A stretch of DNA of 34,659 nt from the IMG/VR virus record IMGVR_UViG_3300035034_001123, positions 1 through 34,659 of that record. One strand, written 5' to 3'. Below are positions 565 through 15,721 of the stretch, one piece after another. The DNA is from a virus. How positions within the stretch are numbered: position 1 is the first letter of the stretch; each line of letters opens with the position of its first letter. A program made the translations under genes and the position numbers. The notes under the pieces are model-generated. The model was not told the DNA's origin, ran no database searches, and saw only the letters and a list, made by a program, of their open reading frames with translations.

Positions 565-579
565 TATACTCTCCATAAA

Positions 580-667: not shown

Positions 668-743
668 ATATAAATTAACTTCCGGCGGTCTCCGATCATT
701 CGAACTACAATTGTTCAAGGAGGGAGTCTGGTTGCGGAATAAA

Positions 744-819: not shown

Positions 820-828
820 ATTAAAGAG

Positions 829-913
829 CGGAGAGAAACGAACACGATTCGTAAAGCCTTGCGACTTCCATCTACTTTCCAAGTAGCGCCTCTACCTTAG
901 AGGTTTACTCTCC
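829..913 (-). tRNA. tRNA-Ser(GGA), CCA not encoded
   Basis: Acceptor GGAGAG/CTCTCC, anticodon loop TTGGAAA on CTAC/GTAG, long variable arm, discriminator G. The 3' end reads G-CTC rather than G-CCA, so CCA would have to be added. The 5' acceptor strand contains the stop codon of the neighbouring gene 905-1117. Confidence 0.85.
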
Positions 914-1117
914 AAATTCGACTAAGTCTAAACTATGTATCAAAGGATGTGATCTTCCTGGCAAAAGTAATGCTACTTGACCTGACTCAGTGTTACGTTC
1001 TATGTTTGGAATCATCTTTCTAACCCTCATGTCGGATACACCTAAAACATCAACCCAAGTATCCTTCGGATACAAATCATCGTGTACAACTAAATTATAT
1101 TTCAATTTCGCTTTCAT
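905..1117 (-). CDS. small hypothetical protein inside the tRNA array
   Basis: 70 aa, starts MKAKLKYNLVVHDDLYPKDT and ends LDLVEFGE. No family recognised. Regular codon pattern and a short basic N-terminus. Its TAA stop (905-907) lies inside the acceptor stem of tRNA-Ser(GGA), so gene and tRNA overlap by 9 bases and translation and tRNA maturation compete on that transcript. No clear Shine-Dalgarno; upstream is the AT-rich stretch 1120-1165. Confidence 0.5.
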   Translation of the reverse strand: MKAKLKYNLVVHDDLYPKDTWVDVLGVSDMRVRKMIPNIERNTESGQVALLLPGRSHPLIHSLDLVEFGE

Positions 1118-1167
1118 AGAACTTATAGTATATATAGTTGAAAACTTTAAAAATGTGTAAAAAAAAT

Positions 1168-1243
1168 TGGCAGGCCATAGAGGACTCGAACCCCTACTAA
1201 TTCGTCCGAAGCGAATCGTGCTAATCCATTACACTAATAACCC
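1168..1243 (-). tRNA. tRNA-Arg(TCG)
   Basis: Anticodon loop CTTCGGA on ATTCG/CGAAT. Acceptor GGGTTAT/ATGGCCT with G1-U72 wobble, discriminator G, CCA encoded. Confidence 0.9.
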
Positions 1244-1248
1244 GCAAA

Positions 1249-1371
1249 TGGTAGCAGCGAAGGGACTCGAACCCTCAATCCCTTACGGGCGCAAGATTTT
1301 TGCTAACCCTTCAAATCAAATTCAAAGAGTTGGAAAAAGTCTTGTGTGTATACCAATTCCACCACACTGCC
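1249..1371 (-). tRNA. tRNA-Leu with a 36-nt insertion in the anticodon loop
   Basis: All other parts are canonical for class II leucine tRNA: acceptor GGCAGTG/CGCTGCT, D arm, anticodon stem CAAGA/TCTTG (1340-1344 and 1292-1296), variable arm GCCCGTAAGGG, T loop TTCGAGT, CCA encoded. Between the two anticodon-stem strands lie 43 nt (1297-1339) instead of 7. The insert folds on itself: AACTCTT pairs with AAGGGTT around a 13-nt loop, and a T5 run can pair with an A5 run next to the stem. Removing 36 nt as CTT|AAAA gives loop CTTAAAA, anticodon TAA, with the break after position 34. Other breakpoints in the T/A runs would give TTA or TTT, so the mature anticodon is not certain. Confidence 0.8.
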
Positions 1372-1383
1372 ATAAATTGAAAA

Positions 1384-1460
1384 TGGTAGCCACAATCGGA
1401 TTCGAACCGACAGACATCACGTTTTAAGCATGATAGGCGTCCCTCTTACCTCATACGGCC
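1384..1460 (-). tRNA. tRNA with anticodon TAA (Leu codon UUA), short variable loop
   Basis: Anticodon loop CTTAAAA on TCATG/CGTGA, acceptor GGCCGTA/TGTGGCT (G1-U72), T arm GTCGG/CCGAT, discriminator A, CCA encoded. The variable region is only five nt (TGTCT), whereas bacterial leucine tRNAs are class II. Amino-acid identity is therefore uncertain. Confidence 0.85.
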
Positions 1461-1468
1461 ATAAAGAA

Positions 1469-1553
1469 AGCTGAGTAAGAGATTCGAACTCTTGTATGAT
1501 TTCTCATGATCGGGTTTGCAATCCGTCCTATTAGGCCACTCTAGCAACTCAGC
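1469..1553 (-). tRNA. tRNA-Cys(GCA) with long variable arm, CCA not encoded
   Basis: Perfect acceptor GCTGAGT/ACTCAGC, anticodon loop TTGCAAA, discriminator U as required for cysteine. Long variable arm with ATGA-GAAA-TCAT hairpin, so class II. The 3' end is T-TTC, not CCA. Confidence 0.85.
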
Positions 1554-1563
1554 ATAAATTAGA

Positions 1564-1650
1564 TGGTAGTCACGGTGGGATTCGGACCCACACGGCCTTT
1601 CGGCCACAACATCCTTAGTGTTGCGGGTCTACCAATTCCCCCACGCGACC
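1564..1650 (-). tRNA. tRNA-Leu(AAG)
   Basis: Class II with variable arm GGCC-GAAA-GGCC. Anticodon stem CAACA/TGTTG, loop CTAAGGA giving anticodon AAG; A34 is rare in bacterial leucine tRNAs. G1-U72, CCA encoded. Confidence 0.9.
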
Positions 1651-1746
1651 ATAAATTGTTCCCTTCCTACCACATCTCTGATCAAGAGAATAAGGGCCCA
1701 ACTGATCAAATTGAGAAACACGATTCGAACGCTATCGGAAATAAAT

Positions 1747-1830
1747 TGGTAGCGGTGAAGGGAGTCGAACCCTTATACCTTTCGGCCACTGAATTTGAAC
1801 CAGCTGCGTATACCTTTCCGCCACACCGCC
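1747..1830 (-). tRNA. tRNA-Leu(CAA)
   Basis: Acceptor GGCGGTG/CACCGCT, anticodon loop TTCAAAT on GCTGG/TCAGT, variable arm with GGCCGAAAGG tip, T loop TTCGACT, CCA encoded. Confidence 0.9.
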
Positions 1831-1900
1831 ATAAATTATTAGATCAGACTTTATTCAGCGTGACCATGTGTTCTCTCCGCCGTAAACATTTTGGGTTATT

Positions 1901-2269
1901 TTATTGTTCAACTGTAATCTTTTGAAGTTTCTCAGCGGATACCCCATTTGATCTAAGCGTGTCTGTAAATTCTTTCATAACAGCGTCAAACCGTTTACGA
2001 ACTCCATACAAGGTCGTTACGTCTTGATATTCAGCATCGTATATTTGTCCAGATTGACTAATTTCTTGAAACATGGCAGCCATTACCCAATTCCCCTTTT
2101 GTTTGAACAAACGATATCCATAGATACCATCCGAAGATAATGACAACGTATAACCTCCATTAACAGAATTAAACTTGAAATTCTTATCCGAATATAATAT
2201 CTGTCCTAATGAGGTTGATTTTACAAGTTCTGTTGAAAGGCTTTCCATGATTAGTGTTTTTAATTTCAT
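1901..2269 (-). CDS. hypothetical protein
   Basis: 122 aa beginning MKLKTLIMESLSTELVKSTS. Not recognised. Predicted mixed alpha/beta with a central strand-rich part (GGYTLSLSSDGIYGYRLF) and a helical C-terminus (RKRFDAVMKEFTDTL). It follows gene 2281-3030 by 11 nt and is probably in the same transcript. The N-terminus resembles that of the neighbour (short amphipathic LK-x-L-LxE helix), which may mark a shared packaging or assembly signal; that is inference only. Confidence 0.65.
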   Translation of the reverse strand: MKLKTLIMESLSTELVKSTSLGQILYSDKNFKFNSVNGGYTLSLSSDGIYGYRLFKQKGNWVMAAMFQEISQSGQIYDAEYQDVTTLYGVRKRFDAVMKEFTDTLRSNGVSAEKLQKITVEQ

Positions 2270-2280
2270 ATTAATATATA

Positions 2281-3030
2281 TTAGTGATTGGAATCATTTC
2301 CCACATCAAAGAGTTTTTTAATCAAATGATTGGTTACAGTAACACTTGTACTTGAAAAGTATTTTCTTAGTTTCTCAATACCCGACCACTTCTTCTTGTG
2401 AATGGATGGTTTGTAACCTGATAACACCGTGCCGTTGAGGTCCACTAAAACAACCACTCCTTCTTTTATAGAAGTCACAACATAAATTTTTGATCCTCTG
2501 CTTTCAACCGTAAATTTAAGAGTATCTGTCTTTTTTAAGACCTCTCTTATTTCATCGACGGTTTTTAGTTCTGAAACGTCAACTGATTTTTGAATTATAG
2601 AAACTAACATAGATTCATACCTATCAGTCAAAACTTTAAGATGACTAGCAATTTTTTGCTCCTCTGGATGTAATTCGTCTTTAAGTGAAATCTTGTCATT
2701 TACCATATCCATAGTGTTTATTACAACACCTTTTGGATACGGATACCCAAATCCTTTTTCCGGTCGTTCGTTTTGACTGTTAAGTAAAATAGAATTCGGA
2801 GAGTTCTTAATAATCTTGTTAGTCTCAGATATAACCTTTTCATACAATTCAAGATCAAATTCATATCCGTGTTTTATAGCATGACTCATTAAACCATGAG
2901 TTTTTCCTTTTGTAATGTATTTGTCGTTGGGATTGAAAACGAACACAGTTTTAGCACCCGATGGTCTATCGGAGTCGTAACCTGATTGAAACTTAATGTC
3001 TTCATTCAACAAACGTTTTAAAGTAATCAT
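2281..3030 (-). CDS. hypothetical protein
   Basis: 249 aa from the ATG at 3028-3030 (MITLKRLLNEDIKFQSGYDS); a TTG 21 nt upstream is less likely. Middle region contains THGLMSHAIKHGYEFDLELY, a histidine-rich stretch, followed by a helical region and a C-terminal strand-rich part (GSKIYVVTSIKEGVVVLVDL). No family assigned. TATTTATA lies three bases before the start, as in gene 32423-33550. It forms a two-gene block with 1901-2269 inside the tRNA array. Confidence 0.7.
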   Translation of the reverse strand: MITLKRLLNEDIKFQSGYDSDRPSGAKTVFVFNPNDKYITKGKTHGLMSHAIKHGYEFDLELYEKVISETNKIIKNSPNSILLNSQNERPEKGFGYPYPKGVVINTMDMVNDKISLKDELHPEEQKIASHLKVLTDRYESMLVSIIQKSVDVSELKTVDEIREVLKKTDTLKFTVESRGSKIYVVTSIKEGVVVLVDLNGTVLSGYKPSIHKKKWSGIEKLRKYFSSTSVTVTNHLIKKLFDVGNDSNH

Positions 3031-3066
3031 GACTATAAATATAACCCACAAGTGAATTTAGTTAAA

Positions 3067-3141
3067 TGGTGCGGATGGAGGTAATCGAAACCTCATCTCA
3101 ACGTTGGCAACGTCATGTAATAGCCGTTATACGACATCCGC
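3067..3141 (-). tRNA. tRNA-Gly(GCC)
   Basis: Acceptor GCGGATG/CATCCGC, anticodon loop TTGCCAA, T loop TTCGATT, CCA encoded. Confidence 0.92.
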
Positions 3142-3151
3142 GTAAATAAAA

Positions 3152-3236
3152 TGGTAGTCGGAGAGGGACTCGAACCCTCATACCTTTCGGCACTAGAGCC
3201 TAAATCTAGCGTGTCTACCAATTCCACCACCCGACC
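3152..3236 (-). tRNA. tRNA-Leu(TAG)
   Basis: Class II, anticodon stem CTAGA/TCTAG, loop TTTAGGC, variable arm GCCGAAAGGT, acceptor GGTCGGG/TCCGACT with G1-U72, CCA encoded. Confidence 0.93.
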
Positions 3237-3547
3237 ATATAAATTAAAATCTGTAAATGAACCGTAGCTAACCGTTCAACCAATGCGGGTTATGGATAGT
3301 CATACGTTTGTCCGGAATGTGTATGATAATCGAACCGCGTGCCGCAAGAACAAACCCTTAATAGGTTCCGCTAACCATTGTCAGATAAAAGGAGCCAAAT
3401 ACGGTTCTTCGTATCCTATTACTGGGTATACACTGGAAGTGATTTTATTACACTAAACTGACTTAAAACCGGCAGTAACTTTTGATTTGTCAACAATAGT
3501 TCCTTTGGAAGCGAACATCCGTATTACTGTATGAGTACTATTTTTTA
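3237..3547. other. 311-bp stretch with no recognised gene
   Basis: No credible ORF. Contains a T-arm-like GCGGTTCGATT near 3325-3345 without the rest of a cloverleaf and a short hairpin CACT-TCC-AGTG near 3430. Probably spacer with decayed tRNA pieces. Confidence 0.4.
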
Positions 3548-3624
3548 TGGTGGGAAATATCAGATTTGAACCGAATACCCAAGTGTACAAAAAATAGAAT
3601 GTTATCAGATTAGACTATGTGGAC
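3548..3624 (-). tRNA. degenerate tRNA-like sequence
   Basis: Exactly 77 nt between the usual TTTATG leader and an encoded ACCA end, with a T-arm-like TCGG-TTCAAAT-CTGA. The 5' strand (GTCCACA) does not pair with the 3' strand (ATTTCCC) and no standard anticodon arm is visible. Likely a decaying tRNA. Confidence 0.4.
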
Positions 3625-3632
3625 ATAAATTG

Positions 3633-3883
3633 TTTGATTGCGTCAATAGCCAGGGTTCTGTTTTACAGATTGACATTTGTCTCAGAAGAATTCTTCTGGT
3701 AACGTGCTAATAGTTACTGCCCTCTACCTGCTGCTATGAGAACGATTACTCTACAGCGACTTGAGGTTACATCTACCTTGGCGTGTTAACGACTTACGTC
3801 TCCGCTCGGCTCGTTGGATGGCCTGAACTTGTCCTCAAAAACAAGGCTTTACTTGTTCCTGTGTCAATCTTTCAGCAATCAAA
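3633..3883 (-). ncRNA. rnpB: RNase P RNA (phage-encoded, compact)
   Basis: Catalytic RNA of RNase P, which removes 5' leaders from pre-tRNAs. Read on the minus strand: P1 is a 9-bp helix TTTGATTGC (3875-3883) with GCAATCAAA (3633-3641); P2 is GATTGACA (3862-3869) with TGTCAATC (3668-3675); P3 is AACAAG/CTTGTT (3840-3857). The conserved GAGGA-box follows P3 (3831-3838). P4 pairs AAGTTCAGG (3822-3830) with CCTGGCTA (3647-3654), keeping the universal bulged U and showing an A-U change relative to the E. coli CCGGG/CCCGG. The 3' core AGACAAATG...ACAGAACCCTGGC matches the bacterial AGATGAATG...ACAGAACCCGGC. Length is 251 nt against 377 in E. coli, so the specificity domain is reduced. It lies inside the tRNA array on the same strand. 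No protein subunit gene is seen, so it would depend on the host protein. Confidence 0.93.
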
Positions 3884-3898
3884 ATGGTGATCAATAAT

Positions 3899-4102
3899 CT
3901 AAAGTAATTTCACCCTCAAAAATCGATATCCAATAAAATTTGGTGTATTGTTGGCATACTCTACTTCAGAAGCAATCACATACGGGTATTCTGTATAGAA
4001 TTGGATTAGTCGTAATATAGGATTACATACCAATTTAATTGGGGTTCGGTGGGCGATATACCCATCGTCAAAAGTAACAAAGTATTTATTTTTCTTATTC
4101 AT
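3899..4102 (-). CDS. small hypothetical protein between RNase P RNA and a tRNA
   Basis: 67 aa, MNKKNKYFVTFDDGYIAHRT at the N-terminus, ending in a basic RFLRVKLL. Not recognised. Starts directly after the 3' end of the tRNA-like gene at 4109, without a visible Shine-Dalgarno sequence, and stops (TAG) 15 nt before the RNase P RNA 5' end. Confidence 0.45.
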   Translation of the reverse strand: MNKKNKYFVTFDDGYIAHRTPIKLVCNPILRLIQFYTEYPYVIASEVEYANNTPNFIGYRFLRVKLL

Positions 4103-4108
4103 AATCGG

Positions 4109-4198
4109 TGAACGTGACAGGATTCGAACCTGCTATTGAAGTACAGGATCACCCTCTTCATATTATGGCTTCTAACCGACCAATCGGTGTCTCCGTTC
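4109..4198 (-). tRNA. irregular tRNA-like gene, anticodon unclear
   Basis: Good T arm (GCAGG-TTCGAAT-CCTGT) and D-like arm (ACCGA-TTGG-TCGGT), acceptor GAACG/CGTTC with two inner mismatches, 3' end A-CCG. The region between D and T arms is too long; GAAG/CTTC can pair around a 27-nt loop containing CATAATATG. It may be a class II tRNA, an interrupted one or a pseudogene. Confidence 0.5.
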
Positions 4199-4203
4199 AA
4201 AAA

Positions 4204-4277
4204 TGGTAGTTCCTACTGGATTCGAACCAGTGTCTCTCAGTAATCGGCCAAGCGTTGCGCCACTCAACTAAGAAGAC
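4204..4277 (-). tRNA. tRNA-Ile(GAT), degenerate acceptor
   Basis: T arm ACTGG-TTCGAAT-CCAGT perfect, D stem GTTG/CAAC, anticodon loop CCGATTA (C33 instead of U33). Acceptor GTCTTCT/AGGAACT has two mismatches. A better tRNA-Ile(GAT) occurs at 9245. CCA encoded. Confidence 0.65.
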
Positions 4278-4370
4278 ATAAATTATTTAAATCGGTTCTT
4301 CATTATTCCACGACTACGGATTCCTAAAAGGAATCCTTCAAGTCTTTGGCGAATTGAAACCTTATCAAAA

Positions 4371-4445
4371 TGGCGGGAGCCTAGGGATTCGAGCCCTATC
4401 CTACTGAGCTTCAATCAGCCATGCCACCAGTTACACCAGACTCCC
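4371..4445 (-). tRNA. tRNA-Phe(GAA)
   Basis: Acceptor GGGAGTC/GGCTCCC, anticodon loop TTGAAGC on GCTGA/TCAGT, T loop CTCGAAT, CCA encoded. Confidence 0.9.
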
Positions 4446-4504
4446 ATGAACTCGGCCATTATTTACATTCACTTTCGTCAAGAGGTAAACCGAGTAATTA
4501 AAAA

Positions 4505-4578
4505 TGGCAGGACATAAAGGATTTGAACCCTTACAAGCAGGTTTGGAATCTGCGGTGCTACCGTTACACTAATGCCCC
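4505..4578 (-). tRNA. tRNA-Trp(CCA)
   Basis: Anticodon stem GCAGA/CCTGC, loop TTCCAAA, discriminator G, acceptor GGGGCAT/ATGTCCT with G1-U72, CCA encoded. Confidence 0.92.
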
Positions 4579-4583
4579 ATAAA

Positions 4584-4660
4584 TGGCGGGATGTACCGGA
4601 TTCGAACCGGCAGATCGCTCGCGTGACAGGCGAGTGCTTTGCCAATTAAGCTAACACCCC
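4584..4660 (-). tRNA. tRNA-Asp(GTC), copy 1
   Basis: Acceptor GGGGTGT/ACATCCC, anticodon stem CTCGC/GCGAG, loop CTGTCAC, discriminator G, CCA encoded. Confidence 0.93.
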
Positions 4661-4720
4661 ATAAATTATTAATAGTCTCTCCTAATAGTCAAGCCGTTTT
4701 GAACCGCTTTAGAAAATAAA

Positions 4721-4812
4721 TGGTGTTATGTCTCAGGTCGTTATTGGACGGGAAAGGCTCTACTAGATACACCTTTTTAACCCTTGGTTATCCAACCCTC
4801 AATGAACACAAC
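4721..4812 (-). tRNA. irregular tRNA-like gene, anticodon unclear
   Basis: Seven-pair acceptor GTTGTGT/ACATAAC, discriminator A and encoded CCA, with the usual TTTATG leader. The body (92 nt in all) is unusual: hairpin TTGG-ATAA-CCAA, a stem AAAGG/CCTTT around a 14-nt loop, and no standard T loop. Confidence 0.5.
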
Positions 4813-4817
4813 ATAAA

Positions 4818-4893
4818 TGGAGCCGCCTACCCGATTTGAACGGGTGACATCCATATTACAAGTATGGCGCTCTACCAACTGAGCTAAGGCGGC
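4818..4893 (-). tRNA. tRNA-Thr(TGT)
   Basis: Acceptor GCCGCCT/AGGCGGC, anticodon stem CCATA/TATGG, loop CTTGTAA, T loop TTCAAAT, CCA encoded. Confidence 0.94.
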
Positions 4894-4898
4894 ATAAA

Positions 4899-5111
4899 TT
4901 ATTTAAGTTTTTCTTTAAATTGTTTAAATAGATTTCCGTTATACGCAAATCCATGTTCGGTGAATGCCTTCGATAAGACTTTCCCATTATTCATATAAGA
5001 TTCATATATCAAGTCGAAATGGTCATTGACCACGTTAGGTTTACTATCAATAACACACTGACGACTACAAGTTTTTCTCTTAGAATCGGATTTGAATGAA
5101 TCCCCACACAC
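4899..5111 (-). CDS. small zinc-ribbon-like protein
   Basis: 70 aa from a GTG at 5109-5111. N-terminus reads CGDSFKSDSKRKTCSRQC, the second half of a C-x-x-C-G...C-S-x-x-C zinc knuckle; the open frame continues upstream to a further cysteine (INCSKSSVCG) but has no good start there. The C-terminal half is helical. Such knuckles occur in HNH and other homing endonucleases, so this may be a remnant of one. No Shine-Dalgarno seen. Confidence 0.4.
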   Translation of the reverse strand: MCGDSFKSDSKRKTCSRQCVIDSKPNVVNDHFDLIYESYMNNGKVLSKAFTEHGFAYNGNLFKQFKEKLK

Positions 5112-5177
5112 CGAACTTTTTGAACAGTTGATTACAAATTACAAATTAAGGCGGCAATAATAAATTAATGATCACGA

Positions 5178-5245
5178 TATAGTAGATTGGATTCGAACCA
5201 ATGTCTCCGGCCGTCAAGGCCAGCGTATTATCCGCTATACTACGT
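5178..5245 (-). tRNA. tRNA-like gene with anticodon loop CTTGACG (TGA)
   Basis: T arm ATTGG-TTCGAAT-CCAAT and anticodon stem CTGGC/GCCGG are good, D stem AGCG/CGCT. Overall body resembles Glu/Asp tRNAs, variable loop four nt, yet the loop gives anticodon TGA (Ser codon UCA). The acceptor pairs only with a bulge (TAGTA/TACTA) and CCA is absent. Possibly non-functional. Confidence 0.5.
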
Positions 5246-5578
5246 CCATCACAAAATTCACAACTGTTAGCGCAGTTGTTTCAAATGAGGTAATCATACA
5301 TCCACCCAACTCCACTAAAAGTTGAGTTTCAGAAATTGATGGAACCGCTGAACGATTCCGTTACCTTTTCTACACATGGCAGATAGGTTAAAAAGTTTTT
5401 TATTCACCGCTAAGCGTCGAATTTTTACAGGCAATAATTACTTGCCTCCTGACGTAAGGCCTTACGGAGCAGGGAATCTCACAGTATTATTGAGCCATGT
5501 ATCTCCGATAAGGTTGCGGTCCTTGGGAGCCAATACTTCTTTCATCTGTGCTAATCAGACTTCTGCGTGAATAAAAAA
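5246..5578. other. gene-free, hairpin-rich block
   Basis: 333 bp with no convincing ORF. Contains a perfect 7-bp hairpin ACAACTG-TTAGCG-CAGTTGT (5261-5280), CAACT/AGTTG (about 5309-5327), AGGCAA/TTGCCT (about 5430-5453) and the 12-bp palindrome GTAAGGCCTTAC (about 5455-5466). May be a structured RNA; not assigned. Confidence 0.4.
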
Positions 5579-5654
5579 TGGAGCAGAAGGTGGGAGTTGA
5601 GCCCACAACCGTCTCGTTGGAAACGAGGTGCTCTGCCGATTGAGCTACTTCTGC
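5579..5654 (-). tRNA. tRNA-Gly(TCC), copy 1
   Basis: Acceptor GCAGAAG/CTTCTGC, discriminator U, anticodon loop TTTCCAA, T loop CTCAACT, CCA encoded. Confidence 0.92.
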
Positions 5655-5660
5655 ATTAAA

Positions 5661-5748
5661 TGGTGGTGTCATGCGGAATCGAACCACCCCCCCATTACAG
5701 AGAACGGATTTACAGTCCGCGTGTTAGAACCACTAACTTTATGACACC
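5661..5748 (-). tRNA. tRNA-Tyr(GTA), copy 1
   Basis: Class II. Acceptor GGTGTCA/TGACACC, anticodon stem GCGGA/TCCGT, loop CTGTAAA, long variable arm, CCA encoded. Confidence 0.92.
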
Positions 5749-5971
5749 ATATATAAATTGTAGACCTCGTTATACCGACTCTTACGGTTATCTTAGATGA
5801 CGTCAACGGATCAGAAACACATCACAGTTTTCTCGATAAGAGCGACTTATCGATTAATTTACAACACGTCTCATGTAAGCACTATCTGCATGATAATTTG
5901 ACGGGTTTCCCAGCTTTCTTTTGACACAATATGATTAGGGATGCTTGCCCTAAAATTGATCGTTGTAAAAA

Positions 5972-6047
5972 TGGTAGTTCCATTGGGACTCGAACCCAAA
6001 TCTTTTGCTTAGAAGGCAAAGGCCCTAATCCTTTAGACGATGGAACC
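5972..6047 (-). tRNA. tRNA-Arg(TCT)
   Basis: Acceptor GGTTCCA/TGGAACT with G1-U72, anticodon stem TTTGC/GCAAA, loop CTTCTAA, CCA encoded. Confidence 0.93.
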
Positions 6048-6065
6048 ATTTGGGTACATAAGAAA

Positions 6066-6142
6066 TGGTGCACCGAGTGAGATTCGAACCCACGAGCATC
6101 TGCTTGGAAGGCAGTGACAATAGGCCGCTATGTGACCGGTGC
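6066..6142 (-). tRNA. tRNA-Gly(TCC), copy 2
   Basis: Acceptor GCACCGG/TCGGTGC, anticodon loop CTTCCAA, T arm GTGGG-TTCGAAT-CTCAC, discriminator A rather than U, CCA encoded. Confidence 0.88.
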
Positions 6143-6144
6143 GT

Positions 6145-6230
6145 AAAAAGTTATCTATTTCAGATTTAATGTATCTCCGACTTTCTTGTGCCGGTGACTT
6201 TACCATTAGTCCAATTGATAATTCACTTTA
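6145..6230 (-). pseudogene. tRNA fossil
   Basis: Retains a D arm (GAC-TAATGGTAAA-GTC) and an anticodon-like stem CCGGC/GTCGG with an 8-nt loop, but no proper T arm, acceptor stem or CCA. Confidence 0.45.
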
Positions 6231-6233
6231 AAT

Positions 6234-6310
6234 TGGTGGAAAATATCGGTAACGATCCGATCAGCCTACAAACGTGCAAAGTTCGTGCGGGTAACCCACG
6301 CCCATCCCCC
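6234..6310 (-). tRNA. tRNA-Ala(TGC), copy 1
   Basis: Anticodon loop TTTGCAC on CGAAC/GTTTG. Acceptor GGGGGAT/ATTTTCC with three consecutive G-U pairs, T arm ATCGG/CCGAT, CCA encoded. The cleaner copy is at 7318. Confidence 0.82.
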
Positions 6311-6322
6311 ATATAAATTCTA

Positions 6323-6516
6323 CGGTAACTACGGAGACATTCAAAGTTTCTCAACGTATTTACCGACCAACTCAAAGTTGGATTTTATCTTCATTTATTT
6401 ATGGTTTTAAAATTTCACCCCTCTCTGATTACTCAGGTTTGGATGCCATTTTTAAATGACGTTTAACCTAAATTTTTTATTTGGTCTTAGGAACCAATGG
6501 TCAACTTTAATAGTTG
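6323..6516 (-). ncRNA. structured RNA element, copy 1 of 2
   Basis: Paralogue of 10590-10803. A 108-bp core (6391-6498) is identical to 10674-10781 at 103 positions. On the RNA: 5' hairpin TCAACT/AGTTGA, stem-loop TTGGT-TCCTAAG-ACCAA, core with GTCATTT/AAATGGC, then hairpin CCAACT/AGTTGG, then a domain closed by CGGTAA/TTACCG holding TACG/CGTA and TTGAGA...TCTC. The flanking stems differ in sequence from the second copy but pair in the same places. It lies just downstream of promoter 6529-6556 and upstream of tRNA-Ala. Not a family I recognise. Confidence 0.75.
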
Positions 6517-6528
6517 ATGATGTATATA

Positions 6529-6556
6529 ACTATACACGACAGATATTCAAAGTCAA
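6529..6556 (-). promoter_or_regulatory. sigma-70-type promoter
   Basis: TTGACT (6551-6556), 16-bp spacer, TATAGT (6529-6534). Would start about 10 nt before structured RNA copy 1 and drive the tRNAs below 6310. Confidence 0.8.
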
Positions 6557-6598
6557 CCCTTTTTTATAAAAAAGTGAGAAATTTACAATAATTTAAAG

Positions 6599-6674
6599 TG
6601 GAAGCCGATAGGAGAATCGAACTCCCGTCTTCACATTGAGAATGTGACATCCTGGTCCACTAGACGAATCGGCC
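6599..6674 (-). tRNA. tRNA-Glu(CTC)
   Basis: Acceptor GGCCGAT/ATCGGCT with G1-U72, anticodon stem TCACA/TGTGA, loop TTCTCAA, discriminator U, CCA encoded. Confidence 0.9.
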
Positions 6675-6745
6675 ATAATCTCAGATTTGCCAGGCCGGCT
6701 CTGAGAAAGCCTTTGAAGGATACAATACCTCTGGTATGAATCAAA

Positions 6746-6840
6746 TGGTAGTCAGTAAGGGATTCGAACCCTTATCATCCCCTCATCTAGGAGCATAGCC
6801 AGTGTATAAAACTGGAGCATTACCATTATGCTAACCGACC
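6746..6840 (-). tRNA. tRNA with anticodon TAT (Ile), long variable arm
   Basis: Acceptor GGTCGGT/ACTGACT, D arm GCATAATGGTAATGC, anticodon stem CCAGT/ACTGG, loop TTTATAC, perfect T arm AAGGG/CCCTT, CCA encoded. A 25-nt variable region can form CTCC/GGGG, unlike normal class I isoleucine tRNA; bacteria mostly read AUA with a CAT tRNA carrying lysidine. Confidence 0.75.
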
Positions 6841-6938
6841 ATAAAAATAAGTGGTTCCCTCAGTTCACCAATTCACGGTTTAACGGACCGGCGTGTTACG
6901 TTGCGTATTACTTTGACACTACGAAGGAATAAATAGAA

Positions 6939-7013
6939 TGGCAGGTCTAAGAGGATTTGAACCCCTACCCCAAAGACCAAAACTTTGTGTGCTAGCCGTT
7001 ACACTATAGACCC
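6939..7013 (-). tRNA. tRNA-Gln(TTG), copy 1
   Basis: Anticodon stem CAAAG/CTTTG, loop TTTTGGT, acceptor GGGTCTA/TAGACCT, discriminator G, CCA encoded. Confidence 0.92.
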
Positions 7014-7019
7014 ATAAAT

Positions 7020-7110
7020 TAATTGTAAATCATCACTCACATCAAACTGAGTTAACAGCCTCGGACTTCGAACCCGATATAGTGTCCCGTTGAGTGTATT
7101 TATACACAAT
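7020..7110 (-). pseudogene. tRNA fossil (T arm only)
   Basis: Perfect T arm TCGGG-TTCGAAG-TCCGA followed by seven bases and no CCA; no matching 5' acceptor or anticodon arm. Confidence 0.4.
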
Positions 7111-7121
7111 GATTCACAAAA

Positions 7122-7195
7122 TGGCAGGTATACGAGGATTTGAACCCCGAATATTTGGATCAGAACCAAACGTGTTACCGTTACACTATATACCT
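7122..7195 (-). tRNA. tRNA-Gln(CTG)
   Basis: Acceptor AGGTATA/TATACCT, anticodon stem TTTGG/CCAAA, loop TTCTGAT, discriminator G, CCA encoded. Confidence 0.92.
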
Positions 7196-7317
7196 ATAAA
7201 CTTTAAATATCAGAAGCCTTTCGTGTCTTCCCGATGTCCCCCACGTTGTAATTAAATGGCAATCAGTAATTCCCGGTATTCTTCAAAGCCGAAACTTTGT
7301 TATCCGCCGCTCATAGA

Positions 7318-7393
7318 TGGTGGAGGTAAACGGGATCGAACCGATGACCTATTGCTTGCAAAGCAACCGCTCTACCGACTGAGCTATACCCCC
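7318..7393 (-). tRNA. tRNA-Ala(TGC), copy 2
   Basis: Acceptor GGGGGTA/TACCTCC, anticodon loop TTTGCAA, discriminator A, CCA encoded. Confidence 0.93.
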
Positions 7394-7557
7394 ATAAATT
7401 TAAAAGAAATAATAAGGATTTATTACATCTACATAACCGAACTTTTGTTATGTATCTCTATATCGTAAATGTTGGATAGCTCTTACCCATTTATTCATCT
7501 ACATTATATATACAACCTCATATTTCTTTATGGTATCGCATCATGGGATACCTTAAA

Positions 7558-7633
7558 TGGTAGACGATACGGGATTCGAACCTGTGACCTTTGGTATGTA
7601 ACACCACTGCTCTAGCCGCTGAGCTAATCGTCC
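7558..7633 (-). tRNA. tRNA-Val(TAC)
   Basis: Acceptor GGACGAT/ATCGTCT with G1-U72, anticodon stem TGGT/ACCA, loop GTTACAT, CCA encoded. Confidence 0.92.
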
Positions 7634-7646
7634 ATAAAAATTAAAA

Positions 7647-7724
7647 TGGTCGCGGAGACAGGATTCGAACCTGCGGCATCCGACTCCCAAAGACGGCGCT
7701 CTGACCAAGCTGAGCTACTCCACG
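7647..7724 (-). tRNA. tRNA-Pro(TGG)
   Basis: Acceptor CGTGGAG/CTCCGCG, anticodon loop TTTGGGA, discriminator A, CCA encoded. Confidence 0.93.
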
Positions 7725-7823
7725 TAAATAAATTTGATACGCTTTGTCAGTCCTCCGCTTTTGGAGAAACACTTCAGCATTAACTGTTAAGAGGTTCATA
7801 TCTCACCTATCGTGTCATGACAA

Positions 7824-8165
7824 CTAAGTCAAGTCCCACCACATAGAATTCTTCATTTCAACGAAGAGTGTATCATCCCAATCGTTGAGACGACTTCTCA
7901 TTACGTTTTTGTTTTTGGCACGACGTCGTCTACTTGAGGATTGTTTGTAACTCTTAGTATCACCACCGTGATAACCAACAGGGAATCCCTTGTCGAAATA
8001 ACGAGCTGTCTTTTCGATAGTCTTACTGTAATCCTTTTTGGAATTCTCAAATTCTTCTTTCAAAGATTTTTGAGGATACCGACTATAAAAATAGAAAGGG
8101 CACATAATTCTAGCCTTCCTACGAGCTTTCTCTTTATACTTCTTGTTTAGTTCATATCTGTTCAT
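7824..8165 (-). CDS. basic hypothetical protein
   Basis: 113 aa, strongly basic: N-terminus NRYELNKKYKEKARRKARIM and an internal SSSRRRRAKNKN, ending in WWDLT. No family recognised; could bind RNA or DNA by charge. Weak Shine-Dalgarno GAG eight nt before the ATG. Stop codon TAG. It is an island in the tRNA array, so it is probably translated from the unprocessed tRNA transcript. Confidence 0.6.
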   Translation of the reverse strand: MNRYELNKKYKEKARRKARIMCPFYFYSRYPQKSLKEEFENSKKDYSKTIEKTARYFDKGFPVGYHGGDTKSYKQSSSRRRRAKNKNVMRSRLNDWDDTLFVEMKNSMWWDLT

Positions 8166-8221
8166 ATTTACTCAAAAAGAGTAGCCGAACTAAATTGAAC
8201 TTTGTTTTTGTTTTTCATAAA

Positions 8222-8296
8222 TGGCAGGTCTACTCAGAATCGAACTGAGGCTATTTGCTTCAAAGGCAATATTGCTACCACTACAATCATAGACCA
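8222..8296 (-). tRNA. tRNA-Gln(TTG), copy 2
   Basis: Anticodon loop CTTTGAA on TTGC/GCAA, T arm CTCAG/CTGAG. Acceptor TGGTCTA/TAGACCT with a U-U first position, discriminator G, CCA encoded. Confidence 0.85.
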
Positions 8297-8611
8297 ACAA
8301 ATGGGATAAAAGCGCCGCCGTAATATACGTCAAGTTCTCATTAATCCGAGCTTATCTGGATTGACTGAGGCTAACTCTTAAAGTGAGTATTGTCACAATA
8401 TACACAGCTATTAAATTTGTCAATATGAACACGTTACATTATGCCGCAATCCAGCGGAAATACCGCCGTTAAGTTACTCTAAAATTGACACTTCATATCA
8501 CGACGATCCAACCATCCGTATCTTATAAAGAAATTGTCATGATTAGCTGTCACACTAATATTTCCGCACTAAAACGCCCGGCGTCCTAAACATTTAGACG
8601 ACATGAACAAA
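8297..8611. other. gene-free stretch containing a promoter
   Basis: No credible ORF. Apart from the promoter at 8395-8423 it holds short hairpins: AATCC/GGATT (about 8341-8360), GCGG-TATTT-CCGC (about 8455-8467) and ACGC/GCGT (about 8573-8583). Confidence 0.4.
8395..8423 (-). promoter_or_regulatory. sigma-70-type promoter inside the tRNA array
   Basis: TTGACA (8418-8423), 17-bp spacer, TATTGT (8395-8400). Positioned to drive the tRNAs from 8296 downward. Confidence 0.65.
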
Positions 8612-8692
8612 TGGTGGCCAAGGTAGGATTTGAACCTACGTTTCCTTCCGGAATATGGAAGGCGTCCTGTATCGCAATTAGACGACCTGGCC
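8612..8692 (-). tRNA. tRNA with anticodon ATT (Asn)
   Basis: Acceptor GGCCAGG/CTTGGCC, T arm GTAGG-TTCAAAT-CCTAC, anticodon stem CTTCC/GGAAG, loop ATATTCC. A34 is unusual. Enlarged D region. CCA encoded. Confidence 0.78.
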
Positions 8693-8702
8693 ATAAATTA
8701 AA

Positions 8703-8777
8703 TGGAAGCGCATGAGGGTATCGATCCCTCTTCTCAGATTTGAAAAAACTGAATCCTAGCCAGTAGACGAATGCGCC
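8703..8777 (-). tRNA. tRNA-Glu(TTC)
   Basis: Acceptor GGCGCAT/ATGCGCT with G1-U72, T arm GAGGG/CCCTC, anticodon loop TTTTCAA, discriminator U, CCA encoded. Confidence 0.88.
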
Positions 8778-8786
8778 ATAAAAATT

Positions 8787-8863
8787 TGGAAGCACCGGTG
8801 AGACTTGAACTCACGACTTTCGCCTTATGAAGGAGACGCTCTAACCAACTGAGCTACGGTGCC
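8787..8863 (-). tRNA. tRNA-Met(CAT), elongator type
   Basis: Acceptor GGCACCG/CGGTGCT with G1-U72, anticodon loop TTCATAA, T arm GTGAG/CTCAC, CCA encoded. An isoleucine (lysidine) tRNA cannot be excluded from sequence alone. Confidence 0.85.
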
Positions 8864-8943
8864 ATAAATTAATCGTTTTGTAAACTTCTAAATTTCATAT
8901 GATGGTAATGAGTTCAACTTTATTGAACTTTTATTGAATAAAG

Positions 8944-9017
8944 TTGCAGGAATCAGAATCGAACTGATTTTATGTTCTGGTTATGAGCCAGAGAGAATGC
9001 CTTACCCCCCTCCTGCG
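8944..9017 (-). tRNA. initiator tRNA-fMet(CAT), CCA not encoded
   Basis: Acceptor CGCAGGA/TCCTGCA has the initiator-specific C1:A72 mismatch, discriminator A, anticodon loop CTCATAA on TCTGG/CCAGA, T arm ATCAG/CTGAT. The 3' end reads A-CTT, so CCA is added after transcription. The D arm is unusual (GGGG/TCTC). Confidence 0.85.
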
Positions 9018-9074
9018 CTAAATTAATGAACATACGACTAACTTAACATATGTGTTAAACTAACAGTATGAAAA

Positions 9075-9149
9075 TGGTGGGCTATAAGAGGATCGAACTC
9101 CTGTCTCATCCTTCGCAAAGATACGTGTTATCCGTTACACTAATAGCCC
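9075..9149 (-). tRNA. tRNA-Arg(GCG)
   Basis: Acceptor GGGCTAT/ATAGCCC, anticodon loop TTGCGAA on TATCT/GGATG, T loop TTCGATC, CCA encoded. Confidence 0.87.
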
Positions 9150-9154
9150 ATAAA

Positions 9155-9230
9155 TGGTGGATATGATGGGCAACGATCCCATAACCTTTCGTTTAAGAGA
9201 CGAATACTCTGCCGATTGAGTTACATATCC
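9155..9230 (-). tRNA. tRNA-Lys(CTT)
   Basis: Acceptor GGATATG/CATATCC, anticodon stem TTCGT/ACGAA, loop CTCTTAA, T arm ATGGG/CCCAT, CCA encoded. Confidence 0.93.
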
Positions 9231-9244
9231 ATGAAAATTATAAA

Positions 9245-9319
9245 TGGTCCCTGAGGAGAATTTCGAAATCTCGACCTATCGGTTATCAACCGATTGCTCT
9301 CCCTCTGAGCTACCCAGGG
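9245..9319 (-). tRNA. tRNA-Ile(GAT)
   Basis: Acceptor CCCTGGG/CTCAGGG, anticodon stem ATCGG/CCGAT, loop TTGATAA, CCA encoded. The intact isoleucine tRNA of the array. Confidence 0.92.
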
Positions 9320-9456
9320 TTGAAAAATTATCATCTATTATAAAGTTGTGTTTGTTGTTAGGGTTACGAATTATCTACACTCTGTTTACCCAACATTACA
9401 ACCAACAAAGCCGTTCCTCAATTACTGGTGTCGCTGTTTTAATCCAGATCAGAAAA

Positions 9457-9531
9457 TGGCGCCGTTACGGAGAATTGAACTCCGATTTGAAGATTGACAA
9501 TCTTCCGTCCTAACCGTTAGACGATAACAGC
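9457..9531 (-). tRNA. tRNA-Asp(GTC), copy 2
   Basis: Acceptor GCTGTTA/TAACGGC, anticodon stem GAAGA/TCTTC, loop TTGTCAA, discriminator G, CCA encoded. Confidence 0.92.
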
Positions 9532-9538
9532 ATAAAGA

Positions 9539-9614
9539 TGGTAGGAGCGATGGGGCACGATCCCACAACCAATGAATTAAAAGTTCACGGCTCTACCGAT
9601 TGAGCTACACTCCC
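9539..9614 (-). tRNA. tRNA-Lys(TTT), copy 1
   Basis: Acceptor GGGAGTG/CGCTCCT, anticodon stem GTGAA/TTCAT, loop CTTTTAA, CCA encoded. Confidence 0.92.
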
Positions 9615-9679
9615 ATAAAAAGTTAATTACATAACACGGATTCGAACCCAACTGGAACCTTTTCCGTTATACAAAAAGG

Positions 9680-9751
9680 AGTCCTCTATCGGATTCACAC
9701 CGATTTCATTCTCATGTACTTGAGAATACGTTACTATCTAACCGAGAAGAC
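9680..9751 (-). tRNA. tRNA with irregular anticodon loop
   Basis: Seven-pair acceptor GTCTTCT/AGAGGAC, D arm GTTA/TAAC, T arm ATCGG-TGTGAAT-CCGAT. The anticodon arm is ATTCTC/GAGAAT around an 8-nt loop AAGTACAT, so the anticodon is ambiguous. The 3' end reads T-CCT. Confidence 0.65.
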
Positions 9752-9756
9752 ATAAA

Positions 9757-9831
9757 TGGTAGGCCTGAGGAATATTGAAATCCTGCACATCTCCTTAAAA
9801 GGGAGCCGCTCTGCCTCTGAGCTACAGACCC
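9757..9831 (-). tRNA. tRNA-Lys(TTT), copy 2
   Basis: Acceptor GGGTCTG/CAGGCCT with G1-U72, anticodon stem CTCC/GGAG, loop CTTTTAA, CCA encoded. Confidence 0.91.
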
Positions 9832-9941
9832 ATAAAATTAATTACAACCCGTCATCCAAGGTGTAAACATTGTAACATAATCGAGTTAACGATTGAATGG
9901 ATATGTCTTCGAAGAATCTTAATTTTTCTTCGGTTGTAAAA

Positions 9942-10034
9942 TGGTGGAAGAAGAGAGAATTGAACTCTCACTGTGTCTTAGCACACTACGGGTTTACAAT
10001 CCGCGCCGACTTAACCAATATTCGGGTCTCTTCC
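9942..10034 (-). tRNA. tRNA-Tyr(GTA), copy 2
   Basis: Class II. Acceptor GGAAGAG/TTCTTCC, anticodon loop TTGTAAA, variable arm GTGT/ACAC, T arm GAGAG/CTCTC, CCA encoded. Confidence 0.9.
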
Positions 10035-10292
10035 ATAATAAAATTGCAACACAAGAAATCGAATTAAAACTTGTGTAAGTCTGTTGATTCGCCAGTCCGG
10101 TCTGGTTCAACGAAACCTCCTACGATTTTTTAAATTAATGATGATAGACATTCACAACACAGTTATTAACTGAGAGGGGTGGCTGATGTTTACCTTGCGG
10201 CATCCGTTACATCTTTGTTCCACACCTATTACGTGTTACCTATCATCCGACAAGGATACAGTCGAAACGTTTTACGATCCGTTTATAAAGCG

Positions 10293-10364
10293 GGTGGTAT
10301 ACGAGATTTGAACTCGCTCACTTTGCGTCACAGGCAAATATGCTGCCAATACATCAATACCACC
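10293..10364 (-). tRNA. tRNA-His(GTG), CCA not encoded
   Basis: Acceptor GTGGTAT/ATACCAC with an extra G at -1 opposite discriminator C, the histidine identity pair. Anticodon stem TTTGC/GCAAA, loop CTGTGAC. The 3' end reads C-CGC. Confidence 0.9.
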
Positions 10365-10373
10365 ATAAAAATC

Positions 10374-10476
10374 ATGATACACCCAACTTGCATGGATTGT
10401 ATAGTTCGATAACGACATCACCTTAAAGGTTCTGTTTTTGAGGATATCGACCCTCAACGTTTTCATTAGGTATCAT
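10374..10476 (-). tRNA. tRNA-like RNA, probably decayed
   Basis: Seven-pair terminal stem ATGATAC/GTATCAT with a T-arm-like ATCCA-TGCAAGT-TGGGT directly beside it, as in a tRNA. The rest (hairpins TTGAGG/CCTCAA and ACCTT/AGGT, 103 nt in all) does not make a standard cloverleaf and CCA is missing. Confidence 0.35.
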
Positions 10477-10488
10477 AAATATTTAAAT

Positions 10489-10578
10489 TGGCTCCGTTTC
10501 GAGGATTCGAACCTCGCCCACCTTTCGATGGTCATCGGATTAACAGTCCGTAGCTTTCACCAAGCCAGCCCAAACGGA
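10489..10578 (-). tRNA. tRNA-Asn(GTT) with long variable arm
   Basis: Acceptor TCCGTTT/AAACGGA, anticodon stem CGGA/TCCG, loop CTGTTAA, discriminator G, CCA encoded. The variable arm CCATC-GAAA-GGTGG makes it class II, unlike normal asparagine tRNA. Confidence 0.85.
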
Positions 10579-10589
10579 ATAAATTTATA

Positions 10590-10803
10590 CGGTGAGTCAA
10601 CATAGTTGAATTGTGCGGAGACGAATCTCAACGCCTCACCGACCAATCAATAGATTGGTTTTGTCTTCTTTTTTCATTTATTTATGGTTTTAAAATTTCA
10701 CCCCTCTCTGATTACTCAGGTTTGGATGCCATTTTTAAAAGACGTTTAACCTAATTTCTTTATCTGGTATTAGGAACCAATATCAGTGATTTGGAAATCA
10801 CCT
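10590..10803 (-). ncRNA. structured RNA element, copy 2 of 2
   Basis: Second copy of the element at 6323-6516. Core 10674-10781. On the RNA: hairpin GTGATTT/AAATCAC, TGGT-TCCTAAT-ACCA, core, hairpin ACCAATC/GATTGGT, then a domain closed by CGGTGAG/CTCACCG with GCG/CGC and TTGAGA...TCTC. Lies at the head of the tRNA array, before tRNA-Asn. Confidence 0.75.
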
Positions 10804-10849
10804 ATGTAAAATTTGTTGTTTCTTTAAAATGACATGAATTAAATCGGTT

Positions 10850-10958
10850 GTCAATACTTATTTTTCAGTTTTTCTTATTTTTTTAAATTTATGTTGTTGA
10901 AGTTATTTCTAATAGTGAAGATGTTTTTTTTAAAGTCAATACTTATTTTTCAGTTTTT
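10850..10958 (-). promoter_or_regulatory. tandem promoter-like region at the head of the tRNA array
   Basis: A 24-bp direct repeat occurs at 10850-10873 and 10935-10958; each ends on the minus strand in AAGTATTGAC, placing a TTGACA (10849-10854) and a TTGACT (10934-10939) -35-like hexamer. The -10 matches are weak (ACTATT at 17 bp or TATTAG at 19 bp for the second). Probably two start sites for the array. Confidence 0.5.
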
Positions 10959-10975: not shown

Positions 10976-11009
10976 AAAAAACCCACTTCTTTTTGGAAGT
11001 GGGCGGTTT
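10976..11009 (-). terminator. rho-independent terminator
   Basis: Minus-strand hairpin CCCACTTCC-AAAAA-GAAGTGGG followed by TTTTTT. Ends the transcript of the 54-aa gene, so the tRNA array needs its own promoter. Confidence 0.88.
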
Positions 11010-14733: not shown

Positions 14734-14924
14734 TATAAGTTTTCTGATTGGATTTTTAGGTGACCTTTTAAATCGGGTCTCAACAACTCAACTTTCTTCA
14801 CATACTTTTCAGCGAAGGCGAAGGATGGGAACTTAGTAGCTTGGCAGGTTGTCCAAACGAAAAGATGGATACCTCCTGAGTAAAATGATGGTATTTGATA
14901 TTTTGATGTTTTTATAACGAACAT
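14733..14924 (-). CDS. small hypothetical protein
   Basis: 63 aa: MFVIKTSKYQIPSFYSGGIH ... ending LKGHLKIQSENL. Not recognised. Coupled on both sides by TAATG overlaps (with the MBL gene upstream and ligA downstream), which supports it being a real gene. Confidence 0.65.
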   Translation of the reverse strand: MFVIKTSKYQIPSFYSGGIHLFVWTTCQATKFPSFAFAEKYVKKVELLRPDLKGHLKIQSENL

Positions 14925-15721
14925 TATAGTTTCTTCTCTCCTGTGAATAAATCGAACGTATCGAATGTGTTTACGAATCCTCTAAAACCGTCTTCGGCGA
15001 CAGATTCTACCTTCTTACTGTAATGATATAACCACATTTTGGCCTTAGTGTCAAGAGCAATCTGATCTTTCATATCAGTATATTGAGTGTGTACCTTGCT
15101 ATTAACCCCAACTTCACATTCATGAAATATTACATCAGCACATTCAAGATAATCGAAAGTTTCGCCGGATTTAGCGTCTGTAGAAATGAATGTGATTCTT
15201 TCGGAATCCACACCATCAGAAATCATCAATCCATAAGAAATCATATCATTAGAATCGACTTTCACATGAATTAAGGGTATGAGGTCGAATATACATTCTT
15301 CCCATATAAAACTCTCATCAGAATCGATGTCGTCTGGTATAATATCGACTGGCTGACAATTAAAGTAATCCTTCAAAGTCATATTGGTATCGTCGATACG
15401 AGACATACCTCCTTTGAGCGTGTTTTCCCAAAGGCTGGTTAATGTTTCCTTCTCACCAAACAGAGTCGGTTTATGATCTGATGTGAAATAAGTCATGAAC
15501 CCCAACCATTCCAAACCCCCAACATGATCTGAGTGAAGGTGTGAGATATAAACCGCATCAATATCATTTGCTGATATTCCAAGTTTCTTTAACTTGAAAG
15601 GTGCTGTAGTTCCGCAGTCAATCAACAATTTCTTTCCTGTATCAGACTCAATCAACATATTTGATTGTCCTTGTTCTATTGAGGCGAATGCCCCTCCTGT
15701 ACCTAAAAATGTTATTTTCAT
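14924..15721 (-). CDS. metallo-beta-lactamase-fold hydrolase, possibly RNase Z-like
   Basis: 265 aa. The N-terminus KITFLGTGGAFASIEQGQSN and the metal motif HLHSDH (about residues 60-65) are diagnostic of the MBL fold. Later ligands fit FISTDAKSGET (Asp), FHECE and WLYHYSKK (His). The compact layout, glycine-rich start and HxHxDH resemble tRNase Z/ElaC and phosphodiesterase branches, but I see no clear exosite arm, so tRNA 3'-end cleavage is only a hypothesis prompted by the tRNA array. First gene of the operon running into ligA; promoter 15732-15759 lies so close that the mRNA would be almost leaderless. Confidence 0.85.
   Translation of the reverse strand: MKITFLGTGGAFASIEQGQSNMLIESDTGKKLLIDCGTTAPFKLKKLGISANDIDAVYISHLHSDHVGGLEWLGFMTYFTSDHKPTLFGEKETLTSLWENTLKGGMSRIDDTNMTLKDYFNCQPVDIIPDDIDSDESFIWEECIFDLIPLIHVKVDSNDMISYGLMISDGVDSERITFISTDAKSGETFDYLECADVIFHECEVGVNSKVHTQYTDMKDQIALDTKAKMWLYHYSKKVESVAEDGFRGFVNTFDTFDLFTGEKKL

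Follow-up and report, generated by a model that had tools for sequence, protein, structure and literature searches.

A previously undescribed structured RNA family at the 5′ end of phage tRNA arrays

The DNA considered here, which we call the window, is the whole 34,659-nucleotide (nt) stretch of the IMG/VR virus record IMGVR_UViG_3300035034_001123. This 34.7-kilobase (kb) record encodes a family-B DNA polymerase (in two open frames), a clamp loader, a NAD-dependent ligase and a ClpP-like protein, and appears to be a fragment of a large T4-like phage. Its 10-kb array of at least 36 transfer RNA (tRNA) genes is the longest among those seen, and it contains two copies of a structured RNA element. 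All predicted tRNAs, 36–37 in the array, lie on the minus strand between positions 744 and 10578, and both RNAs are therefore to be read on that strand. Copy A spans 10803-10590 (−), with its 5′ end at 10803, and stops 11 nt before tRNA-Asn(GTT) (10578-10489, −); copy B spans 6517-6323 (−), with its 5′ end at 6517, and stops 12 nt before tRNA-Ala(TGC) (6310-6234, −), which ARAGORN missed under default settings and found under relaxed ones. An earlier inspection of the letters, hereafter the sequence-only reading, had placed each copy at the head of a tRNA sub-cluster, and these distances bear it out. The two copies share a 108-nt core, and re-alignment reproduced exactly the 103 identical positions previously counted in it. 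A covariance model scores them at 103.8 and 103.2 bits; the next best place in the window reaches 13.3 bits and the scan found no third copy.

The fold of both copies can be followed from the 5′ end (all coordinates on the minus strand). A P1 hairpin comes first, GTGATTT-CC-AAATCAC at 10786-10801 in copy A and TCAACT-ATTAA-AGTTGA at 6501-6517 in copy B. The P2/PK1 region, drawn from the sequence, covers 10750-10779 in copy A and 6467-6496 in copy B, and a P2 at the same place is compensated in other lineages. In copy A it consists of S1 (TGGT 10776-10779 with ACCA 10765-10768) and S2 (CCTAAT 10769-10774 with ATTAGG 10750-10755) around an A-rich loop at 10756-10764; the equivalents in copy B are S1 (TGGT 6493-6496 with ACCA 6482-6485), S2 (CCTAAG 6486-6491 with TTTAGG 6467-6472) and the loop 6473-6481. 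The conserved AAACGTC, for which the family consensus is AACGNC, follows at 10741-10747 and 6458-6464. P4 lies at 10699-10728 in copy A, where CATCC (10724-10728) pairs with GGGTG (10699-10703), the invariant internal loop is AAAC (10720-10723) opposite AGAG (10704-10707), and the terminal stem CTGA/TCAG closes a GTAA loop; P4 of copy B, with the same AAAC/AGAG loop, lies at 6416-6445. The 3′ appendages comprise a P5 hairpin (10642-10659) and a three-way P6/P7/P8 arrangement (10590-10641) in copy A, within 10590-10659, and P5 (6367-6381) and P6/P7 (6323-6365) in copy B, within 6323-6381. The flanking hairpins that the sequence-only reading had listed are present in both copies and do modestly better than dinucleotide shuffles (joint p = 0.04 for P1 and 0.008 for P5), as do the two 3′ domains (z = −2.3 and −2.15). 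Whole elements fold with z scores of −3.8 (copy A) and −3.0 (copy B).

A gapped pattern search led to the first relative, locus L006 in record G002. Proteins of the window have 17 tblastn matches in G002, in the same order and with 33-70% identity (54% for the ligase, 53-57% for the polymerase). The G002 element occupies the same place as in the window, downstream of the ligase and NUDIX genes. On its 5′ side a terminator visible in the sequence is followed by a perfect TTGACA-17-TATAAT promoter, and close behind it begins a tRNA-Ser(UGA) that is cut by the contig end. This tRNA was identified by eye from the anticodon loop CTTGAAA and from the acceptor GGAGAGT against ACTCT at the contig end; neither ARAGORN nor Rfam reported it on G002, as expected for a truncated gene. 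The P4 terminal stem, CUGA/UCAG in the window, reads CAGC/GCUG in G002, and P1 and P5, read by eye, are sequence-unrelated hairpins at matching places. The L006 element was also considered as protein-coding, given a 60-codon open frame that reaches the contig end, and rejected: a search found no relative of the frame, which runs into the truncated tRNA-Ser.

More distant members extended the family well beyond these two phages. The first covariance model, built from three sequences, gave weak matches in the distant phages L019 and L012, in both cases immediately upstream of a tRNA-Cys that opens a run of tRNAs (5 and 8 of them). A pattern made from the features common to both (AACGN{8,18}TCCAAACN{6,16}GAGAGGGG) matched 28 IMG/VR stretches. 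With L006 excluded, 23 of 27 pattern-hit loci have a tRNA on the same strand within 600 nt downstream (starting at 17-573 nt), and the other four were taken as chance matches; the same test was negative for all 63 chance matches of another pattern and all 80 prokaryotic-genome matches used as controls. The 23 loci do not amount to 23 independent events, because some are near-identical copies or the same contig twice. In all, pattern and covariance-model searches of IMG/VR yielded 26 elements (two in the window, one in G002 and 23 others), of which 21 are distinct and 24 lie beyond the window. Sorting by eye gave four or more lineages: Ia (window, G002), Ib (L167, L168, L169, L170, L177, L179, L188, L189), II (L165, L171, L172, L173, L176, L181, L186 and copies) and III (L163, L174, L175), L168 and L179 being the records of L012 and L019. 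Polymerase identity to the window is about 52% in lineage Ib and about 34% in lineage II, and lineage III contigs gave no polymerase match. A second covariance model, R2, gives every member 53-80 bits and nothing else more than about 16 bits; the member scores partly reflect that most of these sequences went into building it. Apart from the window, the only phage with two copies, each phage record has one, and in the records searched the model found no copy away from a tRNA array. The position of the element is constant, whereas the first tRNA varies from lineage to lineage (Asn or Ala, Ser, Cys, Thr or Phe); that tRNA is 11-18 nt away in the window and lineage Ib and 90-573 nt away in lineages II and III.

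Several searches marked the limits of the family. With the closing pair of P4b freed, a looser pattern added no true member from IMG/VR; in 84,980 prokaryote genomes it had 95 matches, and the 80 of these loci that were examined included none either. Scans with an 18-mer and with TAAACGTC...TGGCATCC returned chance matches only, plus L006. Locus searches by the ligase or by a single polymerase were too narrow; the polymerase alignment reached the lineage Ib phages. Weak model matches at L158-L162, L311 and L312 have no tRNA array at the match and were taken as chance.

What is conserved across lineages is a compact core. In its minimal form (lineage Ib, about 75 nt) the element consists of a 7-pair P2, a 3-nt joint, AACGNC, a 10-nt joint and P4, with 17-18 nt left to the tRNA. 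P4 has five pairs, including a constant U-G, then a 4x4 internal loop AAAC/AGAG and a stem closed by a constant C-G. Its pairs form at every position in 18 of 18 distinct sequences, and four of them are changed on both sides. The whole tested structure has a covariation of 0.491, against 0.228 for shuffled alignments (0 of 500 as high) and at most 0.087 for slid ones; the alignment behind these figures was fitted to the model, but the constant loop anchors P4a and the first part of P4b. P2 is compensated at three pairs inside lineage Ib and at three inside lineage II. Lineage II adds a 3′ pseudoknot, AGACG-AGCCCCGGA-CGUCU...CCGGG, whose second stem has two compensated pairs; the first stem, with a one-column shift in L181 and L186, is unsupported in the register tested. 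The sequences of Ia, III and most of II allow PK1 to be drawn, an H-type pseudoknot in which the loop of a short hairpin pairs with the strand immediately 5′ of AACGNC; its S1 shows no compensation in lineage II. An outer pairing AUGG/CCAU from model R1 was dropped once other lineages were added, owing to broken pairs and a fitted alignment. Because the folding energies of the minimal form are unremarkable (z = +0.5 to −2.1), the case for structure rests on covariation. Selection on RNA structure, the explanation that the sequence-only reading had favoured, thus holds through the compensated P2 and P4, whereas the stems it had offered as evidence (P1, P5, P6 and P7) are additions of lineage Ia: the other lineages lack them or carry a different 3′ pseudoknot. 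The identical core, which it had treated as unstructured, is where the widely conserved and compensated part (P2, AACGNC and P4 with AAAC/AGAG) resides.

Is this RNA already known under another name? Against Rfam 15, taking a score over the curated threshold or an E value below 1 as the criterion, only tRNA exceeded the threshold (window and nine relatives at gathering cutoffs, both copies and the orthologue at E ≤ 10), and the best non-tRNA matches were far below it; the RNA had rightly been called unnamed. Nor did blastn of the window, Ib, II and III elements against INPHARED give any real match, or the family model any match on T4, Mel-JY01, XacN1, Phosso, Atu_ph07, RAS14, F86, Bellamy, LR756502 and HK022. 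The literature searched contains no description of such an RNA, which is no proof, since subscription papers and supplements were mostly outside its scope. Both window copies and the 24 further elements combine P2, AACGNC and P4 with AAACC/GAGAG at the head of a tRNA cluster, and we regard it as almost certain that the two copies belong to a previously undescribed family of structured phage RNAs at the 5′ end of tRNA arrays. Judged from sequence, the element is a new RNA family of a known broad kind, that is, a phage leader or a tRNA-island RNA, and it probably helps the viral tRNA genes to be transcribed or processed.

The surroundings of the element bear on which of these it may be. Promoters were scored by matches to sigma70-like -35 and -10 boxes, out of 12, with a p value. 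Upstream of the motif, Ia, Ib and III have a sigma70-like promoter: 12/12 in G002 (p = 0.003), 11/12 in six of eight Ib members (p = 0.007-0.023) and 11/12 in L174 (p = 0.02). The end of the -10 box is 40-42 nt from AACG in Ib, 55 nt in L174, 80 nt in L175, 65 nt in copy B and 154 nt in G002. The site directly before copy B (6529-6556, −; TTGACT-16-TATAGT, 10/12) is marginal (p = 0.07), and in L163 no promoter was found within the 190 nt tested. Copy A lies downstream of another operon that ends in an intrinsic terminator (10981-11004, −). In no lineage does an intrinsic terminator separate the element from the first tRNA, so that effects on the polymerase, on processing or on stability remain to be considered.

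Our leading, and still tentative, interpretation is that the element is a cis-acting leader that would make RNA polymerase processive through the tRNA array, by analogy with the put RNAs of phage HK022. Under this interpretation, the nascent element would act in cis, folding as it leaves the polymerase and binding the transcription complex directly or via a host or phage protein. The polymerase could then traverse the untranslated tRNA array, several kilobases long, free of pauses and of termination by Rho, and an RNase P cut at the first tRNA would detach the leader. In the window, two presumed transcription units would each have their own copy. Position at the start of the array, absence of a downstream switch, a strict loop sequence and a promoter in three lineages fit a cis signal on the transcription complex. 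We also count in its favour that the one phage with two copies has the longest array and that its second copy stands behind an internal promoter-like site.

HK022 encodes two cis-acting put RNAs (putL and putR) of about 70 nt, each with two stem-loops and downstream of a promoter, which act over at least 10 kb on intrinsic and Rho-dependent terminators (PMC9378689). The minimal element resembles them in size (about 75 nt), in its two stem-loops (P2 and P4), in the promoter-like site upstream in Ia, Ib and III, and in the presence of two copies in one genome, here that of the window. Unlike the element, put heads the early operons of a lambdoid phage. Among known systems, put is the closest working model. 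A second parallel is the ribosomal RNA (rRNA) operon leader (boxB-boxA-boxC) or lambda nut, likewise an RNA signal close to the promoter that lets a long operon be transcribed processively, and the GUUCUUU-like sequence that lineages II and III have 3′ of P4 points in this direction too. Tested with the consensus TGYTCTTTRA, L163 and L174 match boxA at 10/10 positions (p = 0.007 and 0.003) and L181 at 9/10 (p = 0.03); as boxA is significant in these three only, it was not upheld as a general family feature. We know of no counterpart of P2/P4 in the rRNA-operon leader or in lambda nut. The EAR RNA of epsC is a pseudoknotted 5′ leader that promotes processive antitermination of a long operon; no Rfam family matches the element, however, and epsC heads exopolysaccharide genes.

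A number of observations weigh against a processivity leader. The family model does not match the HK022 genome, a comparison made in one direction, from model to genome, and the boxA-like sequence is absent from the window and clear only in lineage III (L163 and L174) and L181. Copy A has no significant promoter match, the site before it (10826-10854, −; TTGACA-17-CATTTT) reaching 9/12. Lineage II has an intrinsic terminator of variable sequence 61-75 nt before AACG (the L165 group, L181 and L186; in L171 by eye) and no promoter was found between this terminator and the motif, so that the element is seemingly transcribed by read-through; an antiterminator acts only on terminators that come after it. 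The arrays examined contain a single internal intrinsic terminator (in L169, 371 nt into it); with arrays almost devoid of them, nothing visible needs antitermination except possible Rho sites. The lineage II terminator and this shortage of internal terminators are the weightiest of the counter-arguments. Finally, the phage tRNA arrays L026, L031 and L032 have no element in the records searched, those of L031 and L026 lying near contig ends.

Nearly as likely is a stand-alone phage RNA with no tie to the tRNA operon other than a common promoter; RNase P (and perhaps RNase E) would free it to play a role in trans, such as binding a host protein, the ribosome or a defence factor; we put this at about one chance in three. 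Phage tRNA islands do house such RNAs: GOLLD and ROOL, whose function is unknown, are structured phage RNAs close to tRNA islands (PMC12286853), and T4 rnaC/rnaD (species 1 and 2 RNA) are small stable RNAs in a phage tRNA cluster. The strict invariance of AACGNC and AAAC/AGAG together with lineage-specific appendages would suit a ribonucleoprotein, and the single copy per phage record outside the window also speaks for this reading. GOLLD and ROOL differ, however, in being far larger (GOLLD often over 800 nt) and in forming cages, whereas the element measures 75-210 nt and sits at the 5′ head of the array, and their Rfam models do not match it; T4 has rnaC/rnaD at the other extremity of its array, the 3′ end, and they do not match the family model. 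The chief argument against a free RNA is that the element comes first in the array in nearly every member though tRNAs and 5′ neighbours have been swapped, and that copy B again stands behind a promoter-like site and 12 nt before a tRNA; the model also found it only at tRNA arrays in the records searched. By position, then, a leader of the tRNA operon is favoured over a stand-alone RNA.

A role in processing or stabilising the 5′ end of the tRNA precursor, whereby the element would shield that end from nucleases or deliver RNase P or a modifying enzyme to the array, is improbable. It would be in keeping with the location directly at the 5′ end in the window and Ib, 11-18 nt before the first tRNA, and with the absence of an expression platform; a plain hairpin would suffice for this purpose, however, leaving the invariant internal loop and AACGNC unexplained, and in lineages II and III the first tRNA is as far off as 90-573 nt. 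Far less credible is a leader of the riboswitch or T-box kind, turning the operon on or off in response to a metabolite or to uncharged tRNA. Conserved 5′ leaders with a pseudoknot and a purine-rich internal loop do resemble aptamers, and a short open frame and a terminator accompany the lineage II element, but that terminator precedes the element, no Rfam riboswitch or T-box matches, and the lack of a terminator between element and tRNA in any lineage makes such a switch unlikely. Chance, or a neutral spacer that was duplicated recently and carries fortuitous hairpins, would agree with the unexceptional folding energies of the minimal element and is already refuted by the homologues, with an orthologue in a phage whose ligase is 54% identical, compensated stems and tRNA adjacency in 23/27 loci versus 0/143 controls.

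Large phages carry tens of tRNA genes, and the transcription and processing of such long untranslated operons are little understood. A conserved RNA fixed at the array start while tRNAs and neighbours swap offers a concrete handle on tRNA-operon expression. It is possible, if short of an even chance, that the element represents a dedicated class of phage leader RNA controlling transcription of the whole tRNA array, as a protein-independent or host-factor-recruiting processivity signal for noncoding operons. Such a class would appear to share no sequence relationship with put, nut or rRNA leaders and to be confined so far to uncultivated phages. If the element acts on RNA polymerase, it would constitute a new RNA-only or host-assisted class of antiterminators and a compact means of expressing long noncoding arrays; action in trans would instead place it, as a new phage RNA, alongside GOLLD, ROOL and T4 rnaC/rnaD.

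Some further features of these loci deserve mention. About 60-250 nt 5′ of the motif, lineage II (L165, L171, L172, L173, L181 and L186) has a TATAAATA-like late promoter in most members, a 25-30 codon open frame and the terminator, promoter and frame being read by eye; the arrangement resembles an attenuator, or else a very small gene from which read-through supplies the tRNA array. The 5′ neighbour in Ib and II (L167, L177, L171, L172, L181 and L186) is an HNH endonuclease gene (PF01844/PF14279; two were scanned), that in Ia a NUDIX gene and that in L174 a weak phosphatase-like match. Upstream of copy A, an exact 24-nt direct repeat, AAAAACTGAAAAATAAGTATTGAC, at 10850-10873 and 10935-10958 (−) ends in a -35-like TTGAC; its 22-nt core has no other occurrence in the window with up to 3 mismatches, and the repeat is possibly a phage promoter element.

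Within the array (544-10490, −), many inter-tRNA gaps of 60-460 nt contain strong hairpins and degenerate tRNA-like stretches, some of which may be further RNAs or decayed tRNAs. The family-B DNA polymerase of the window is divided between two adjacent open frames (21136-22617 and 22645-23886, −), where relatives have a single frame of 837-844 amino acids. The minus strand also encodes an anti-Pycsar Apyc1-like protein of the metallo-beta-lactamase fold (14924-15721) and a DruA-domain protein (26543-27760), both possible counter-defence genes. In L006 (2238-4601) the clamp-loader gene is broken by an apparent intein or homing-endonuclease insert, and the T4-like record L161 carries, at 483-893 (−), a candidate phage transfer-messenger RNA with an unusually long tag (ANVELSTMTFEDAMAWMNSFDYAVAA).

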